Below are positions 5,424 through 34,689 of a DNA stretch of 64,000 nucleotides, piece after piece. This DNA comes from Actinacidiphila rubida (GTDB lineage: Bacteria > Actinomycetota > Actinomycetes > Streptomycetales > Streptomycetaceae): positions 1-64,000 of the forward strand of contig NZ_FODD01000040.1 of the NCBI RefSeq assembly GCF_900110255.1, read 5' to 3'. Under the pieces are notes generated by a model that saw nothing but the letters and a program-made list of their open reading frames with translations, did not search any database and was not told where the DNA came from. The position numbers and the translations under genes are program-made. How positions within the stretch are numbered: the stretch's first letter is position 1; every line of letters starts with the position of its first letter.

Positions 5424-6191
5424 TCATTTCAGGGCCAGTTGCACGATCGCGGCGAGGCCGACGACGACGATGAGGCCGCGCAGGGCGGTGGGCGGCAGGC
5501 GGCGTCCGATGCGGGCGCCGACCATTCCGCCGAGGGTGGCGCCGGCCGCGATCAGCCCGACGGCCGCCCAGTCCATGTGGGCGACGATGACGAAGAAGAC
5601 GGCGGCGATGCCGTTGACTATCGCGGCCAGGACGTTCTTGAGGCCGTTGACGCGCTGCAGCGGTTCGTCGAGCAGCAGGCCCATCAGGGACAGGTAGAGG
5701 ACGCCCTGGGCGGCGCCGAAGTAGCCGCCGTAGGCGCTGGCGACGAGCATCCCGAGGAGCAGGACGGGGCCGCCGTCGGTGGGGGCGCTGCTGCCGGCCG
5801 CGTCCCTGCGGGCCTGGACGAAGCGGGCGAGGCGCGGCTGCAGGACGACGAGGACGAGCGCGAGGCCGATGAGTACCGGCACGATCGCGTCGAACGCCTT
5901 GGACGGCAGCGTGACGAGCAGCATGGCGCCGCCGGCGCCGCCGATCAGGCACACGGTGCCCAGGCGCAGCAGCCGGTCGCGCTGGCCGGTGAGTTCCTTG
6001 CGGTAGCCGATGGCTCCGGCCACCGAACCGGGCACCAGCCCGAGGGCGTTGGAGACGTTGGCGGTGACCGGGGGCAGACCGACCGCGAGCAGGACGGGGA
6101 AGGTGATCAGCGTTCCCGACCCGACGATGGTGTTGATCGTGCCCGCACCGACGCCGGCCGCGAGGACCGCCACTGCTTCTGCTGGGGACAT
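5424..6191 (-). CDS. TauE/SafE-family anion (sulfite) exporter
   Basis: Integral membrane protein of 255 residues with about eight hydrophobic segments. It contains the family hallmark near the N-terminus (GVGAGTINTIVGSGTLITFPVLL, with the GxGSG-type turn) and a second related repeat in the C-terminal half (GYFGAAQGVLYLSLM). Members export sulfite, sulfonates or related anions; the substrate is not readable here. The start is supported by GGAGA 7 bases upstream of ATG 6191. It appears monocistronic, between a convergent HNH gene and the SPFH gene. Confidence 0.92.
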   Translation of the reverse strand: MSPAEAVAVLAAGVGAGTINTIVGSGTLITFPVLLAVGLPPVTANVSNALGLVPGSVAGAIGYRKELTGQRDRLLRLGTVCLIGGAGGAMLLVTLPSKAFDAIVPVLIGLALVLVVLQPRLARFVQARRDAAGSSAPTDGGPVLLLGMLVASAYGGYFGAAQGVLYLSLMGLLLDEPLQRVNGLKNVLAAIVNGIAAVFFVIVAHMDWAAVGLIAAGATLGGMVGARIGRRLPPTALRGLIVVVGLAAIVQLALK

Positions 6192-6348
6192 AGGGCTCTC
6201 CGTGATCGCTGTGCAGCCTCCCCGCCATGGAGGTCGAGGGGTGCGCGGTGATCATGCCAGCCGTGCGGACCGCTTGTCGAAGGCGGCGGCCGGATTCCCG
6301 CCGGGGCCGGCGGGGTTGCGGCGGACGTGCGGCGGGGTCGCTGCGGGA

Positions 6349-7311
6349 TCAGTCCTTGTCGAAGCGGGGCGACTCGCGGCGAGGGGCGGGCATCGCGGAC
6401 GGGTTCGAGCCGCCGTTGCCGCCGTTGCCGCCGTTGGACACGCCGGGGATGTTCATCATGCCGCCGAGGCCCTTGAGCGCGTCGTTGAGCTCGCTGGGGA
6501 TGATCCAGAGCTTGTTGGCGTCGCCCTCGGCGATCTTCGGCAGCATCTGCAGGTACTGGTAGGCGAGGAGCTTCTGGTCCGGGTCGCCCGCGTGGATGGA
6601 CTCGAAGACCGTGCGGATGGCCTGCGCCTCGCCCTCGGCGCGCAGGGCCGCGGCCTTGGCGTCACCTTCGGCGCGGAGGATCGAGGACTGCTTCTCGCCT
6701 TCCGCGGTGAGGATCTGGGACTGCCTGATGCCCTCGGCGGTGAGGATCGCGGCGCGCTTGTCGCGGTCGGCGCGCATCTGCTTCTCCATGGAGTCCTGGA
6801 TGGAGGTGGGCGGTTCGATGGCCTTGAGTTCGACGCGGTTGACGCGGATGCCCCACTTGCCGGTCGCCTCGTCGAGGACGCCGCGCAGCGCCGCGTTGAT
6901 CTCCTCGCGGGAGGTGAGGGTCCGCTCCAGGTCCATGCCGCCGATGATGTTGCGCAGCGTGGTGACGGTCAGCTGCTCGATCGCCTGGATGTAGCTGGCG
7001 ACCTCGTACGTCGCGGCGCGGGCGTCGGTGACCTGGTAGTAGATGACGGTGTCGATGTTGACCACCAGGTTGTCCTGGGTGATCACCGGCTGCGGCGGGA
7101 ACGGGACCACCTGCTCGCGCAGGTCGATCCGGTTGCGGATGGTGTCGATGAACGGGACGACGATGTTCAGCCCGGCGCTGAGGGTGCGGGTGTAGCGGCC
7201 GAAGCGCTCCACGATCGCCGCGCTGGCCTGCGGGATCACCTGCACCGTCTTGATCAGCGCGATGAAGACGAGCACCACCAGGATGATGAGGACGATGATG
7301 ATGGGCTGCAT
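6349..7311 (-). CDS. SPFH/Band-7 (stomatin-like) membrane protein
   Basis: The 320-residue protein has an N-terminal membrane segment (MQPIIIVLIILVVLVFIALIKT), then a Band 7 domain of the paraslipin/QmcA type. The domain reads AAIVERFGRYTRTLSAGLNIVVPFID, then REQVVPFPPQPVITQDN and RNIIGGMDLERTLTSREEIN, followed by an Ala/Glu-rich coiled coil with repeated ILTAEGxxQ units. These proteins form oligomeric membrane microdomain scaffolds. The C-terminus is Gly/Asn-rich (SNGGNGGNGG). The next gene upstream encodes an NfeD-type protein, the standard partner of this family. Confidence 0.94.
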   Translation of the reverse strand: MQPIIIVLIILVVLVFIALIKTVQVIPQASAAIVERFGRYTRTLSAGLNIVVPFIDTIRNRIDLREQVVPFPPQPVITQDNLVVNIDTVIYYQVTDARAATYEVASYIQAIEQLTVTTLRNIIGGMDLERTLTSREEINAALRGVLDEATGKWGIRVNRVELKAIEPPTSIQDSMEKQMRADRDKRAAILTAEGIRQSQILTAEGEKQSSILRAEGDAKAAALRAEGEAQAIRTVFESIHAGDPDQKLLAYQYLQMLPKIAEGDANKLWIIPSELNDALKGLGGMMNIPGVSNGGNGGNGGSNPSAMPAPRRESPRFDKD

Positions 7312-7449
7312 GGCCGCTCCCGCGCCGGTTGAGCCGGATGTGTCACGTACGACGACATGATCAATTGTCGCAGACAGCCGGCGCGCTCCGGGCGGGGATC
7401 GGCGAATTCCCCTCGCCCCGCGGCCTGTTGTCCGCCGGTTCGAGGCCTG

Positions 7450-7872
7450 CTACATGACGACGGCGGTCGCGCCGTCGATCTCCACCACGTCCACGTGATC
7501 CCCGGGGTCGAAGACCCGGCCGGTGTCCAGAGCCCTGGCCGACCAGACCTCGCCGCCGAGTTTGATCCGGCCGCCCGCGCCGGCGTCGACCCGCTCCAGC
7601 ACCACGGCCCGCTTGCCCTTGAGGGCGTCGATGCCGCTGCGCTGCTCGGGGCGCTGGCGGTTGCGGTAGGCCAGCGGCCGGACGAACACCAGGAGCGCCA
7701 CGGACACCGCGACGAACACGATCACCTGGGCCACGATGCCGCCGCCGAGTCCCGCGGCGGCCGCACCGGCCACCGCGCCCACCGCGAACATGCCGAATTC
7801 GGGCATTGCCGTGATCACCAGCGGGATGCCCAGTCCCACCGCGGCTATCAGCCACCACACCCATGCGTCCAC
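7450..7872 (-). CDS. NfeD-like membrane protein
   Basis: A protein of about 140 residues with two hydrophobic segments (WVWWLIAAVGLGIPLV; then a longer one ending in VFVAVSVALLVFV) and a C-terminal OB-fold of the short NfeD type: GIDALKGKRAVVLERVDAGAGGRIKLGGEVWSARAL, then GDHVDVVEIDGATAVV. NfeD proteins work with SPFH proteins; the SPFH gene follows 138 bases downstream on the same strand, supporting a two-gene membrane-domain module. Start uncertain: GTG at 7872 is taken; a TTG at 7893 would add seven residues. Confidence 0.88.
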   Translation of the reverse strand: MDAWVWWLIAAVGLGIPLVITAMPEFGMFAVGAVAGAAAAGLGGGIVAQVIVFVAVSVALLVFVRPLAYRNRQRPEQRSGIDALKGKRAVVLERVDAGAGGRIKLGGEVWSARALDTGRVFDPGDHVDVVEIDGATAVVM

Positions 7873-31484: not shown

Positions 31485-31726
31485 GGTCCCGCCCTCCCTC
31501 CGGGCGCCCGGTCGCGCCGCTCGGTCTCATCCCTCCCCCCACCCTAAGACCGGCCGGCGACAATCCGGCCGGCCGGCGGTGCGCCGGAGGTTCGCCGCAG
31601 CGTACGCGATGGGAGGGCTTCAGCAACAGTTTGTTGAAATCGGCTGGACAGAAGGGGGGTGCCCCCGGACGCGGCCGGTCGTTGAACCGGGCACAGCCCG
31701 CTCCCGCCCGATCGGGGTCCCTCACG

Positions 31727-31963
31727 ATGACTGCCGCACCGCCGCCCCCGCCGCCGTCCGCCTCTCCCCCGCCGTCGGAGCCGCCGCCCCAGCCGGCCCG
31801 CCGGCCGTTCGGCAGCGTGCGACTGCCGCACCCCGTGCCGGCCGCGCCCCCGGCGCAGGCGCACGCGCGGCGGACGCGGCCGGCCCGCCGGGACGCGGCG
31901 CGGGTGGTGCTGCCGCTGCTCAGCGCGGCCGACCTGCGGCCGCCGCGCGGCCGCGACCGGTAG
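31727..31963 (+). CDS. Small Pro/Arg-rich protein, tentative
   Basis: A 78-residue frame whose third codon positions are almost all G or C, as in the host's real genes. The N-terminal half is proline-rich (TAAPPPPPPSASPPPSEPPP). The C-terminal half is basic and helical (ARRTRPARRDAARVVLPLLS). The ribosome-binding site is weak. No family known. The upstream interval 31485-31726 holds only the moaA promoter region and a short inverted repeat CAACA/TGTTG at 31623-31635. Confidence 0.45.
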   Translation: MTAAPPPPPPSASPPPSEPPPQPARRPFGSVRLPHPVPAAPPAQAHARRTRPARRDAARVVLPLLSAADLRPPRGRDR

Positions 31964-31993
31964 ACGCCGGCGGAACACCGGTCAGAACACCCG

Positions 31994-33049
31994 TCAGAAG
32001 GTGACCAGCACCTTCAGCGCGGTGCGCTCGTCCATCGCGCGGTAGCCGCCGGGCACGCCGTCCAGGTCGACGGCGTGGTCGAAGACGGGGGCGGGGTCCG
32101 TGCTGCCGTCGAGAATGCCGGGCAGCAGTTCCTCGATGTACGTGCGGACCGGCGCGACGCCGCCGCGCAGCGCGATGTTGCGGTCGAACATCTCGCCGAG
32201 GTCCAGCCCGGTGCCGCTGCCGTGCGGCACGCCGACGTAGCCGATCGCCCCGCCGTCGCGGGTGATGCCGACGGCGGTGCGCATGGACTGCTCGGTGCCG
32301 ACGGCCTCGATGACGGCGTGCGCGCCCTGGCCGCCGGTCAGTTCGCGCACGGCGGCGACGGCTTCCTCGCCCCGGGCGGCGACCACGTCGGTCGCGCCGA
32401 AGGTCCTGGCGATGTCGGTGCGGTCCTGGTGGCGGCCGAGCGCGATGATCCGCTCGGCGCCGAGCCGGCGGGCGGCCAGGACTCCGCACAGGCCGACCGC
32501 GCCGTCACCGACGACGGCCACGGTGCTGCCGGGCCGCACGCCCGCGCCCAGCGCCGCGTGGTGGCCGGTGCCGAACACGTCGGACAGCGCGAGCAGGCCG
32601 GTCAGCAGGTGGTCGTCGGAGAGCGCCTCGGGGGGCAGCTTGACCAGGGTGGTGTCGGCGAACGGCACCCGCACGGCCTCGCCCTGGCCGCCGTCGGACT
32701 GGCCCTCCTCACCGATGGAGCCCCAGAAGCCGCCGTGGACGCAGGAGGTGGTGAGGCCGTCGGCGCAGTACGTGCACACGCCGTCGGACCAGACGAAGGG
32801 CGCGACGACCAGGTCGCCGGGCCGCAGCCCGGTCACTTCGGCACCGGTCTCCTCGACGACGCCGAGGAACTCGTGCCCGATCCGCTGGCCGGGCTTGCGC
32901 GCCGACTCGCCGCGGTACGCCCACAGGTCGCTGCCGCAGATGCAGGCGCGGACCACCCGGACGACGGCGTCGCCGGGGTTGCGGAGCGCCGCGTCCGGCA
33001 CCTCCTCCACCCGGATGTCGTGGGGGGCCTGGATGACGGTGGCGCGCAT
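31994..33049 (-). CDS. Zinc-dependent alcohol dehydrogenase (MDR family)
   Basis: The 351-residue medium-chain dehydrogenase has catalytic zinc ligands C38 (CICGSDLWAYRG) and H59-E60 (GHEFLGVVEETG). Structural-zinc Cys residues cluster at about 97-108 (CTYCADGLTTSC). The NAD(P)-binding motif is VAVVGDGAVGLCGVLAARRLGAERIIALGRHQDR; the Arg/His after it suggests NADP or NAD is possible. It starts 6 bases after the lysoplasmalogenase gene, as the third gene of an operon. It may process the aldehyde produced upstream (inference). Substrate not proven. Confidence 0.93.
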   Translation of the reverse strand: MRATVIQAPHDIRVEEVPDAALRNPGDAVVRVVRACICGSDLWAYRGESARKPGQRIGHEFLGVVEETGAEVTGLRPGDLVVAPFVWSDGVCTYCADGLTTSCVHGGFWGSIGEEGQSDGGQGEAVRVPFADTTLVKLPPEALSDDHLLTGLLALSDVFGTGHHAALGAGVRPGSTVAVVGDGAVGLCGVLAARRLGAERIIALGRHQDRTDIARTFGATDVVAARGEEAVAAVRELTGGQGAHAVIEAVGTEQSMRTAVGITRDGGAIGYVGVPHGSGTGLDLGEMFDRNIALRGGVAPVRTYIEELLPGILDGSTDPAPVFDHAVDLDGVPGGYRAMDERTALKVLVTF

Positions 33050-33055
33050 GGGGGG

Positions 33056-33766
33056 CTACTCCGTGGTCAGAGGGTGGGTGCGCGGCCGGTCGGCCGCCGC
33101 CTTCCCACCGTACGTGCCGGGGTTCGCGGCCGCGCGTTCGGGCGTCGCCTGCACCGCGCGGACCAGGCAGAACTGTGCCGCCGCGTAGGTGAGCATGATC
33201 CACAGGTCGTGGGCGGGCGGGCGCGGCCAGCCGGCGAGGCCCGCCGCGATCAGCCCGTCGGAGAGCAGGAAGAGCAGCCCGCCGGCCGCGCCCGGCCTGC
33301 CGAGCCCGAAGGCACCCGCGGCCATCGCGGTCAGCAGCAGGCTGTAGCCGGCCACCGGGATCCGCATCCCGGCGTCCAGGCCCGGCCACAGCGCGGTGAT
33401 CAGCGCCACCCACACCACCGCGTAGGCCGCACACCGCACCCGCGTGGCGCGACTCCCGCGGAACGCGCCGCGAGCGGCGAACAGCCGCAGGTAGCAGACG
33501 TGCCCGGCGGCGAAGCAGCCCATGCCGAGCAGGAACGCCGCGGTGCCGCCGATCTCGAGCAGCACGTCGCCGGCCCAGCCGCAGGCCAGCGCCGCGAGCA
33601 GCAACCGGGGGCCGCCGCGGGCGGCGGCGTGGGCGGCGAGCGCGGGCACGAGCAGCGGCTTGGTGGCCAGCCGCAGGGCGTCGATCCCGGCGCCGACGGC
33701 CACCAGGTGCAGCACGGCCAGGAGCAGGAAGACCCGGAGCGCCGCCCGCGCGCGGTCGGCCCTCAC
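33056..33766 (-). CDS. YhhN/TMEM86-family lysoplasmalogenase-like membrane protein
   Basis: A protein of about 236 residues with eight hydrophobic helices and the YhhN pattern: ALRLATKPLLVPALAAHA, then ACGWAGDVLLE, FLLGMGCFAAGHVCYLRLF and LLFLLSDGLIAAG. The conserved Asp residues in GWAGD and LLSDGL are the likely catalytic pair. The family hydrolyses the vinyl ether bond of lysoplasmalogens, releasing a fatty aldehyde. GTG 33766 overlaps the desaturase stop (GTGA), so the two are translationally coupled. A longer open frame upstream is the shadow of the desaturase gene. Confidence 0.9.
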   Translation of the reverse strand: MRADRARAALRVFLLLAVLHLVAVGAGIDALRLATKPLLVPALAAHAAARGGPRLLLAALACGWAGDVLLEIGGTAAFLLGMGCFAAGHVCYLRLFAARGAFRGSRATRVRCAAYAVVWVALITALWPGLDAGMRIPVAGYSLLLTAMAAGAFGLGRPGAAGGLLFLLSDGLIAAGLAGWPRPPAHDLWIMLTYAAAQFCLVRAVQATPERAAANPGTYGGKAAADRPRTHPLTTE

Positions 33767-34689
33767 GCCGCGGACCCGCGGGCGACGGTTCCCGCGGCCG
33801 CGTCCCCGGTCGCGCCCTCGACGGCCACGCCTTCGGCGGCCGCGGCGGTGCCGGCCGCGGTCCCGGGCCGCCAGCCGGGGCCCAGCACCAGGTGCCGCAT
33901 CTTGTCCCGCCAGTCGCCCGCGGCGGCCACGTCCCGGGCGATGGCCGCGTACTCGTGCGTGGCCACCCGCAGCGGGTTGTACGTCGCGATGTTCTTCGTC
34001 AGGCCGTAGACCGGGCGCTCGGTCTCGGCCGTGAACGAGCCGAACATGCGGTCCCAGACGATCAGGATGCCGCCGAAGTTGCGGTCCAGGTAACTGCCCT
34101 GCGAGGCGTGGTGGACCCGGTGGTGCGAGGGCGTGTTGAGCAGGAACTCCAGCGGGCGGGGCAGCTTGTCGACCCGTTCGGTGTGGATCCAGAACTGGTA
34201 GACGAGGTTGACCGAGGAGCAGAAGGCCAGTGCCGCCGGGTGCACGCCGAGCACGATCAGCGGCAGGTAGAACGGCCACGAGGTGAGGCTGGTCCACGGC
34301 TGGCGCAGCGCGGTCGAGAGGTTGAAGTTGCGGCTGGAGTGGTGCACCACGTGGCACGCCCACAGGATGCGGATGACGTGGTGACCGCGGTGCGACCAGT
34401 AGTAGAAGAAGTCCTGGGCGAGCAGCATCAGCAGGACCGTCCACCAGTGCAGCGGCACGCGCAGCGGCGTCAGCGCGTACACCCCGGCGTAGATCGCCAC
34501 GACGGGGATCTTCCAGAGGGCGTCGGTGAACAGGCTGCCGATTCCCATCGACAGGCTGGCCGCCGTGTCCCTGCCCGCGTACCCCTCCGCGTCCTCGTCG
34601 GGGTGAATGCGGTAGCTCACCATCTCCACGACGGTGAGCAGCACGAACGCGGGTATCGACCACAGCACGACATCGGGCAGTTGCGGCAT
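33763..34689 (-). CDS. Sterol desaturase/fatty acid hydroxylase-family membrane di-iron enzyme
   Basis: A 308-residue membrane protein with several hydrophobic helices and the three histidine clusters of the superfamily: HRGHHVIRILW, then HVVHHSSRNFN and HRVHHASQGSYLDRNFGG. The nearby YWSH and GIDALR-type segments fit as well. The family covers sterol desaturases, fatty acid hydroxylases and alkylglycerol monooxygenases. The Ala/Gly-rich tail after about 275 is not conserved. It is the first gene of an operon with a lysoplasmalogenase homologue and an alcohol dehydrogenase, which favours a lipid, possibly ether lipid, substrate. Confidence 0.93.
   Translation of the reverse strand: MPQLPDVVLWSIPAFVLLTVVEMVSYRIHPDEDAEGYAGRDTAASLSMGIGSLFTDALWKIPVVAIYAGVYALTPLRVPLHWWTVLLMLLAQDFFYYWSHRGHHVIRILWACHVVHHSSRNFNLSTALRQPWTSLTSWPFYLPLIVLGVHPAALAFCSSVNLVYQFWIHTERVDKLPRPLEFLLNTPSHHRVHHASQGSYLDRNFGGILIVWDRMFGSFTAETERPVYGLTKNIATYNPLRVATHEYAAIARDVAAAGDWRDKMRHLVLGPGWRPGTAAGTAAAAEGVAVEGATGDAAAGTVARGSAA

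Follow-up and report, generated by a model that had tools for sequence, protein, structure and literature searches.

The 64,000-nucleotide stretch of the Actinacidiphila rubida genome analysed here (the window; contig NZ_FODD01000040.1) carries on its minus strand a gene for a putative membrane di-iron oxygenase resembling alkylglycerol monooxygenase (AGMO), followed directly by a gene for a YhhN/TMEM86 lysoplasmalogenase homologue. This gene pair is conserved, apparently coupled and at least once mobile, and it may most simply be understood as a unit for ether-lipid cleavage in which an alcohol dehydrogenase is optional. A sequence-only reading of the window had proposed that the three genes form a complete ether-lipid module. 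That reading is partly supported: the coupled and conserved pair stands, while the third gene turned out to be optional. What is conserved is the pair rather than the triad.

Gene 1 (33763..34689, minus strand) starts with ATG at 34689 and encodes a protein of 308 amino acids, a predicted AGMO-like membrane di-iron oxygenase of the FA_hydroxylase superfamily. Gene 2 (33056..33766, minus strand) starts with GTG at 33766 and encodes a YhhN/TMEM86 lysoplasmalogenase homologue of 236 amino acids. The stop codon of gene 1 and the start codon of gene 2 share the four bases GTGA (33763..33766, minus strand), as read from the sequence, and translational coupling of the two genes is therefore suggested by this overlap. 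YhhN can be read from a start codon at -4 relative to the stop of gene 1 in 40 of the 43 paired loci, and the three exceptions are a locus with a +1 start, one with a broken YhhN gene (G010), and the frameshifted locus L055. In L055, gene 1 and YhhN lie in one open frame (5908-7536); this fusion was not used, since gene 1 is probably frameshifted close to its end, probably through a sequencing error.

The recurrence of the pair, studied at several depths, exceeds what chance would give. Among 31 genomes (its own, 18 of the same genus, and 12 of the order), the two genes are adjacent in 10 of the 19 genus genomes including its own, one of the ten being G010. Of the remaining genus genomes, two carry the two genes on separate contigs, with YhhN lying at the edge of its contig; gene 1 alone is present in two, in one of them as a weaker match, gene 2 alone in one, and neither gene in four. 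In locus L013 (G008), YhhN is preceded, from about 1196, by no more than a partial match to the first part of gene 1, itself diverged, as in decay or loss of one partner. In the family coded f3 the pair is adjacent in one of 11 genomes, although both protein families are present in 10 of the 11. Across 296 genomes of the phylum it is adjacent in six, every one of them from the family of the window. In the same phylum sample 26 genomes were classed as having an AGMO-like gene, with genus and adjacency as the basis for four and the profile for the rest, and with unfetched weaker matches counted as non-members. YhhN is present in 18 of these 26 genomes versus 29 of the other 270 (Fisher 1e-10, ignoring relatedness).

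A wider view was obtained from 80 named loci, which are the best by similarity to the query from a collection scan and in which YhhN was scored with a home-made profile. YhhN adjoins the AGMO-like gene in 31 of the 80, all actinobacterial: 26 of the 30 loci of the window clade, and five loci of a second clade consisting of three Micromonospora and two Streptomyces. When 40 of the 80 genomes were searched as a whole with the Pfam YhhN model, YhhN was found somewhere in 30 of them. The pair therefore reaches beyond close relatives, since it also occurs in Micromonospora, in a second family of the order, and on a plasmid. The triad was found only in Streptomycetaceae-type loci, the outcome that had been named beforehand as speaking against it. 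No report of the pairing was found in literature on the pairing or on bacterial AGMO, as judged from titles and abstract openings with subscription journals thinly covered.

The best evidence that the pair, and not the triad, is the travelling unit comes from plasmid p3211-1 of Streptomyces sp. 3211, in which a lysoplasmalogenase gene comes after a relative of gene 1 (58.9% identity over 89%). The pair (L175, 4001-5541) has transposase genes on either side and no further cargo, and its guanine plus cytosine content is 51% against 65-66% in the flanks; it was probably acquired from elsewhere. The two plasmid genes overlap as ATGA if an earlier ATG is used, while the record annotates a later start. 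The gene 1 query matched 56 plasmid records, of which four regions were opened and one had an adjoining YhhN. A YhhN query against plasmids gave no match at 1e-8. Since it thus missed the plasmid YhhN to which the gene 1 query had led, absence of YhhN by tblastn alone is weak evidence.

Gene 1 trees separate the window clade from the Micromonospora clade, and a single clade of paired gene 1 sequences is not rejected (approximately unbiased test, p-AU 0.125). In the YhhN tree both paired sets fall in one group with weak support (82), unpaired rows included. PF04116 outgroups place the root of gene 1 on a long branch, and no trust was put in this rooting. These trees do not show that the pair arose twice independently, given the p-AU value and the weak joining of both sets in the YhhN tree.

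The gene 1 protein matches the Pfam family PF04116 (FA_hydroxylase) at 1e-30, and the histidine clusters HRGHH, HVVHH, and HRVHH that the sequence-only reading had pointed out are all found. According to published mutagenesis of human AGMO, histidines 132, 136, 145, 148, 149, 201, 221, 224, and 225 are essential; Q162, D233, N235, Y236, W243, and D244 are further critical residues; and E137 contacts tetrahydrobiopterin, its alanine mutant showing an 18-fold higher Michaelis constant for this cofactor (PMC3617469, PMC7911779). Fourteen of these 16 residues are present in register in gene 1, at an offset of 32 up to human residue 201 and of 31 beyond it, owing to a one-residue shift between 201 and 221. 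They are the eight-histidine motif plus a ninth histidine that corresponds to H201 (H100, H104, H113, H116, H117, H169, H190, H193, and H194), and Q130, D202, N204, W212, and D213 as equivalents of Q162, D233, N235, W243, and D244. The protein differs from human AGMO (EC 1.14.16.5, also TMEM195) in being bacterial and in its length, 308 against the 445 amino acids given in the source for the human enzyme, and the comparison was made by published residue positions.

For the AGMO-like set 105 proteins were collected, of which 100 fit the motif, the window copy being counted twice; the misfits are three trimmed fragments and two outgroups. None of the 100 departs from Q162, D233, or N235. A profile of the set scores its members at 343-434 bits and other PF04116 proteins of the phylum at 59-117 bits or not at all. 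The earlier suggestion of an AGMO-type role for gene 1 is supported in that the residue pattern is present and the profile scores lie well apart from those of the other PF04116 proteins sampled. The confident AlphaFold model of gene 1 (predicted local distance difference test, pLDDT, 89.4; predicted template modelling score, pTM, 0.84) gave nothing in a Foldseek search of the PDB at E <= 0.001, and PDB sequence searches with genes 1 and 2 gave no match at E <= 1.

The gene 2 protein matches PF07947 (YhhN) at 2.8e-33, with 115.6 bits versus a cut-off of 25.6, and it keeps all eight of the proposed YhhN catalytic residues (K36, G66, D67, H89, G162, S169, D170, and Y194). Its assignment as a YhhN/TMEM86 homologue is upheld by these retained residues, which it shares with the lysoplasmalogenases Rv1401, Legionella YhhN, and TMEM86A/B. 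It differs from them in being coupled, as it appears, to an AGMO-like gene. The M. tuberculosis YhhN (Rv1401) is a demonstrated lysoplasmalogenase that requires a free sn-2 hydroxyl and is specific for lyso vinyl ethers (PMC9052158).

A link of the AGMO-like family with ether lipids is suggested by the neighbours of some relatives of gene 1. In Patulibacter medicamentivorans (L048, 6001-10664) and on a Rhodococcus plasmid (L176, 3980-7621), an AGMO-like gene, a short-chain dehydrogenase gene, and a gene for a flavin adenine dinucleotide (FAD) enzyme stand together on one strand. The FAD enzyme gene of a Mycobacterium dioxanotrophicus plasmid (L178, 1029-4810) is one gene away from the AGMO-like gene, on the opposite strand. 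The three FAD enzymes best match solved alkyl-dihydroxyacetone phosphate (alkyl-DHAP) synthases, at 3e-70 to 4e-67 with the Dictyostelium enzyme, versus 5e-26 at best with D-lactate dehydrogenase/glycolate oxidase. An HHH stretch of the Patulibacter enzyme aligns with the Dictyostelium synthase, and NCBIfam gave only matches far under cut-off, glcD first. Alkyl-DHAP synthase makes ether lipids. The three loci may be a possible bacterial aerobic ether-lipid cluster. Close alkyl-DHAP synthase homologues (E <= 1e-120, with at most four candidates scored per genome) are present in 20 of the 296 phylum genomes: 8 of the 26 with an AGMO-like gene versus 12 of the other 270 (Fisher 7e-5, again ignoring relatedness). 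These neighbours and this co-occurrence support ether lipids as a substrate class of the AGMO-like family. Among other neighbours of AGMO-like genes, those of the Bacteroidota, an enolase-superfamily protein, a CAAX protease-like protein, and an AMP-binding enzyme in flavobacteria and penicillinase-repressor and BlaR1-type genes in Chitinophagaceae gave no functional lead.

The third gene of the locus (31994..33049, minus strand; ATG start at 33049, 351 amino acids) encodes a zinc-dependent medium-chain alcohol dehydrogenase and follows gene 2 after a gap of six bases. The order of the three genes on the minus strand, their families, the four-base overlap, and this gap, all proposed earlier, were confirmed by re-reading and by Pfam. 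Gene 3 matches ADH_N (PF08240) and ADH_zinc_N (PF00107), and its best PDB match is the Thermus protein 4cpd (1.9e-60), with which ICGSD, GHE, and an Asp align; these are presumably the zinc ligands. A dehydrogenase follows YhhN in 8 of the 13 YhhN loci of the genus, in 13 of the 26 named pairs of the window clade, and in none of the five of the second clade. The triad was accordingly rejected as a conserved unit, as the dehydrogenase is missing from the other five, thirteen, and five, respectively. Where 20 loci were examined, the gap from YhhN to the dehydrogenase could be estimated in 18 and ranges from -16 to 46 bases; two gave no estimate.

The host genome is 9.0 Mb in size, and the locus is flanked directly by a divergent DEDDh exonuclease gene and by moaA downstream, with no lipid genes. 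About 510 bases without a nameable gene (31485-31993) separate the dehydrogenase from moaA. In five congeners without the dehydrogenase, moaA comes after YhhN within the same short locus. The named loci with matching surrounding genes are those of Streptomyces.

In the reading preferred here, genes 1 and 2 would encode coupled membrane enzymes for cleaving lyso-ether lipids at the sn-1 ether bond. The gene 1 oxygenase would oxidise C1 of the saturated alkyl chain to a hemiacetal, which would collapse to a fatty aldehyde and a glycerol derivative, while the gene 2 protein would act on lysoplasmalogens by hydrating their vinyl ether, with products of the same kinds, so that jointly the two could handle both ether-lipid classes. 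Gene 3, where present, may reduce (or oxidise) the aldehyde. The substrate, the reaction, the electron donor, and the part of gene 3 in aldehyde conversion are inferred. Since none of the known ether-lipid biosynthesis genes that were searched for turned up in the host, the likeliest use would be scavenging or detoxifying ether lysolipids from other organisms. Judged from sequence comparison, the chances that the pair releases fatty aldehyde from lyso-ether lipids of the alkyl and vinyl types are about even.

Several observations weigh against this reading. In gene 1 the position of the pterin-contact residue E137 is V105, and the AGMO-essential Y236 is F205. Because of V105, gene 1 was filed as AGMO-like rather than AGMO; this label is a matter of residue pattern. 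With the glutamate missing in the window branch, the cofactor and the exact reaction proposed for gene 1 are tentative. Position 137 holds V in 40, E in 28, and R in 11 of the 100 AGMO-like proteins, and position 236 holds F in 40, Y in 33, and H in 27. Many bacterial relatives, including the Micromonospora pairs (L050, L053, and L054), have E at 137, contrary to the statement of a review that glutamate at this position is found in no other member of the family. The residue pattern is also not fully exclusive: among 11 non-member PF04116 proteins with a comparable motif, Q stands at 162 in L203 and E at 137 in L191, and L154 and L155 likewise carry D233 and N235 by eye. Q162 was therefore not accepted as a strict marker for AGMO-like proteins. 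The single PF01329 pterin dehydratase of the host is uninformative as a marker of pterin dependence, since the family is present in 38 of 40 related genomes.

Distribution counts on the same side. The co-occurrence counts take no account of relatedness, and 45 of the 80 named loci, Bacteroidota and Myxococcota included, fall outside both paired clades and have no adjoining YhhN, which is also missing beside gene 1 in 4 of the 30 window-clade loci. The Pfam model found no YhhN in 10 of the 40 whole genomes with an AGMO-like gene, Patulibacter included. The three relatives with alkyl-DHAP synthase neighbours have R at 137 and no YhhN alongside, and among the best 80 named loci such a neighbour occurs only at L048. 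As for the host, a genome search gave no match to CarF/PEDS1, which is also absent from 39 of the 40 related genomes searched, although a Corallococcus positive control was detected. The host likewise has no close alkyl-DHAP synthase, its best match covering part of the protein (9.7e-23, 34%). A home-made ether-lipid substrate is therefore not evident in the host.

The missing synthesis genes of the host would suit an explanation without any ether bonds, in which gene 1 oxidises an ordinary ester lipid or amino lipid, much as OlsE hydroxylates ornithine lipid, while YhhN serves general lysolipid turnover and the pair tunes the membrane lipids. OlsE shares the superfamily with gene 1, and its NCBIfam model gives a weak match of 48.3 bits; this lies far under the equivalog cut-off of 475. 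The only entry from a second structural comparison of the gene 1 model, against 176 chains, is the yeast fatty-acid hydroxylase Scs7p (Z 5.8, 171 residues, root-mean-square deviation 5.8), a weak match that agrees with the superfamily. With Q162 invariant in the AGMO-like set and present in one of the 11 comparable non-members, a described YhhN specificity for lyso vinyl ethers, and alkyl-DHAP synthase homologues beside three relatives, this explanation appears unlikely. Membership of the family cannot fix the substrate of gene 1, since, as a review reports, an AGMO-related enzyme of Pseudoalteromonas cyclises prodigiosin to cycloprodigiosin (PMC7911779). Gene 1 may by analogy be a natural-product oxidase, with YhhN as a passenger. 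The Pseudoalteromonas rubra cyclase (de Rond 2017) is reported as a bacterial AGMO-related oxidase as well, but with a pigment substrate. The flanks of the window locus are not biosynthetic genes, the pair is kept across many streptomycetes, and it stands cargo-free between the plasmid transposase genes; a natural-product role is therefore quite improbable.

It is also conceivable that gene 1 makes rather than breaks an ether-lipid feature, as an oxygen-dependent plasmanyl desaturase standing in for CarF/PEDS1 and producing the vinyl ether that YhhN hydrolyses or controls. YhhN requires a vinyl ether, yet CarF is absent from nearly all the genomes with an AGMO-like gene that were searched. A cleaving enzyme would be odd beside the alkyl-DHAP synthase homologue and short-chain dehydrogenase of Patulibacter and the Rhodococcus plasmid, and the absence of the pterin glutamate from the window branch points in the same direction. 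The critical residues, however, fit a cleaving enzyme, the host has no close alkyl-DHAP synthase, and the three loci that have a homologue lack an adjoining YhhN. The desaturase role is accordingly held to be very doubtful. A broader scheme, speculative and rather unlikely as a whole, would see within the AGMO family an actinobacterial branch of alkyl-ether oxidases that need no pterin. In relatives that make ether lipids its members would serve as an oxygen-dependent plasmanyl oxidase or desaturase replacing CarF/PEDS1; in Streptomycetaceae and Micromonospora, which are not known to contain alkyl and vinyl ether lipids, they would form with a lysoplasmalogenase a mobile cassette for the turnover of such lipids.

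If the cleaving reading of genes 1 and 2 is true, ether lipids would be processed by soil actinobacteria. Degradation of alkyl and vinyl ether lipids by streptomycetes, and the pterin need of the branch without E137, become testable. The Micromonospora pairs that retain E137 offer a natural comparison for pterin dependence. More generally, the members of the AGMO-like branch that keep E137 and those that lack it form a natural series on pterin use by AGMO, with bacterial proteins to try.

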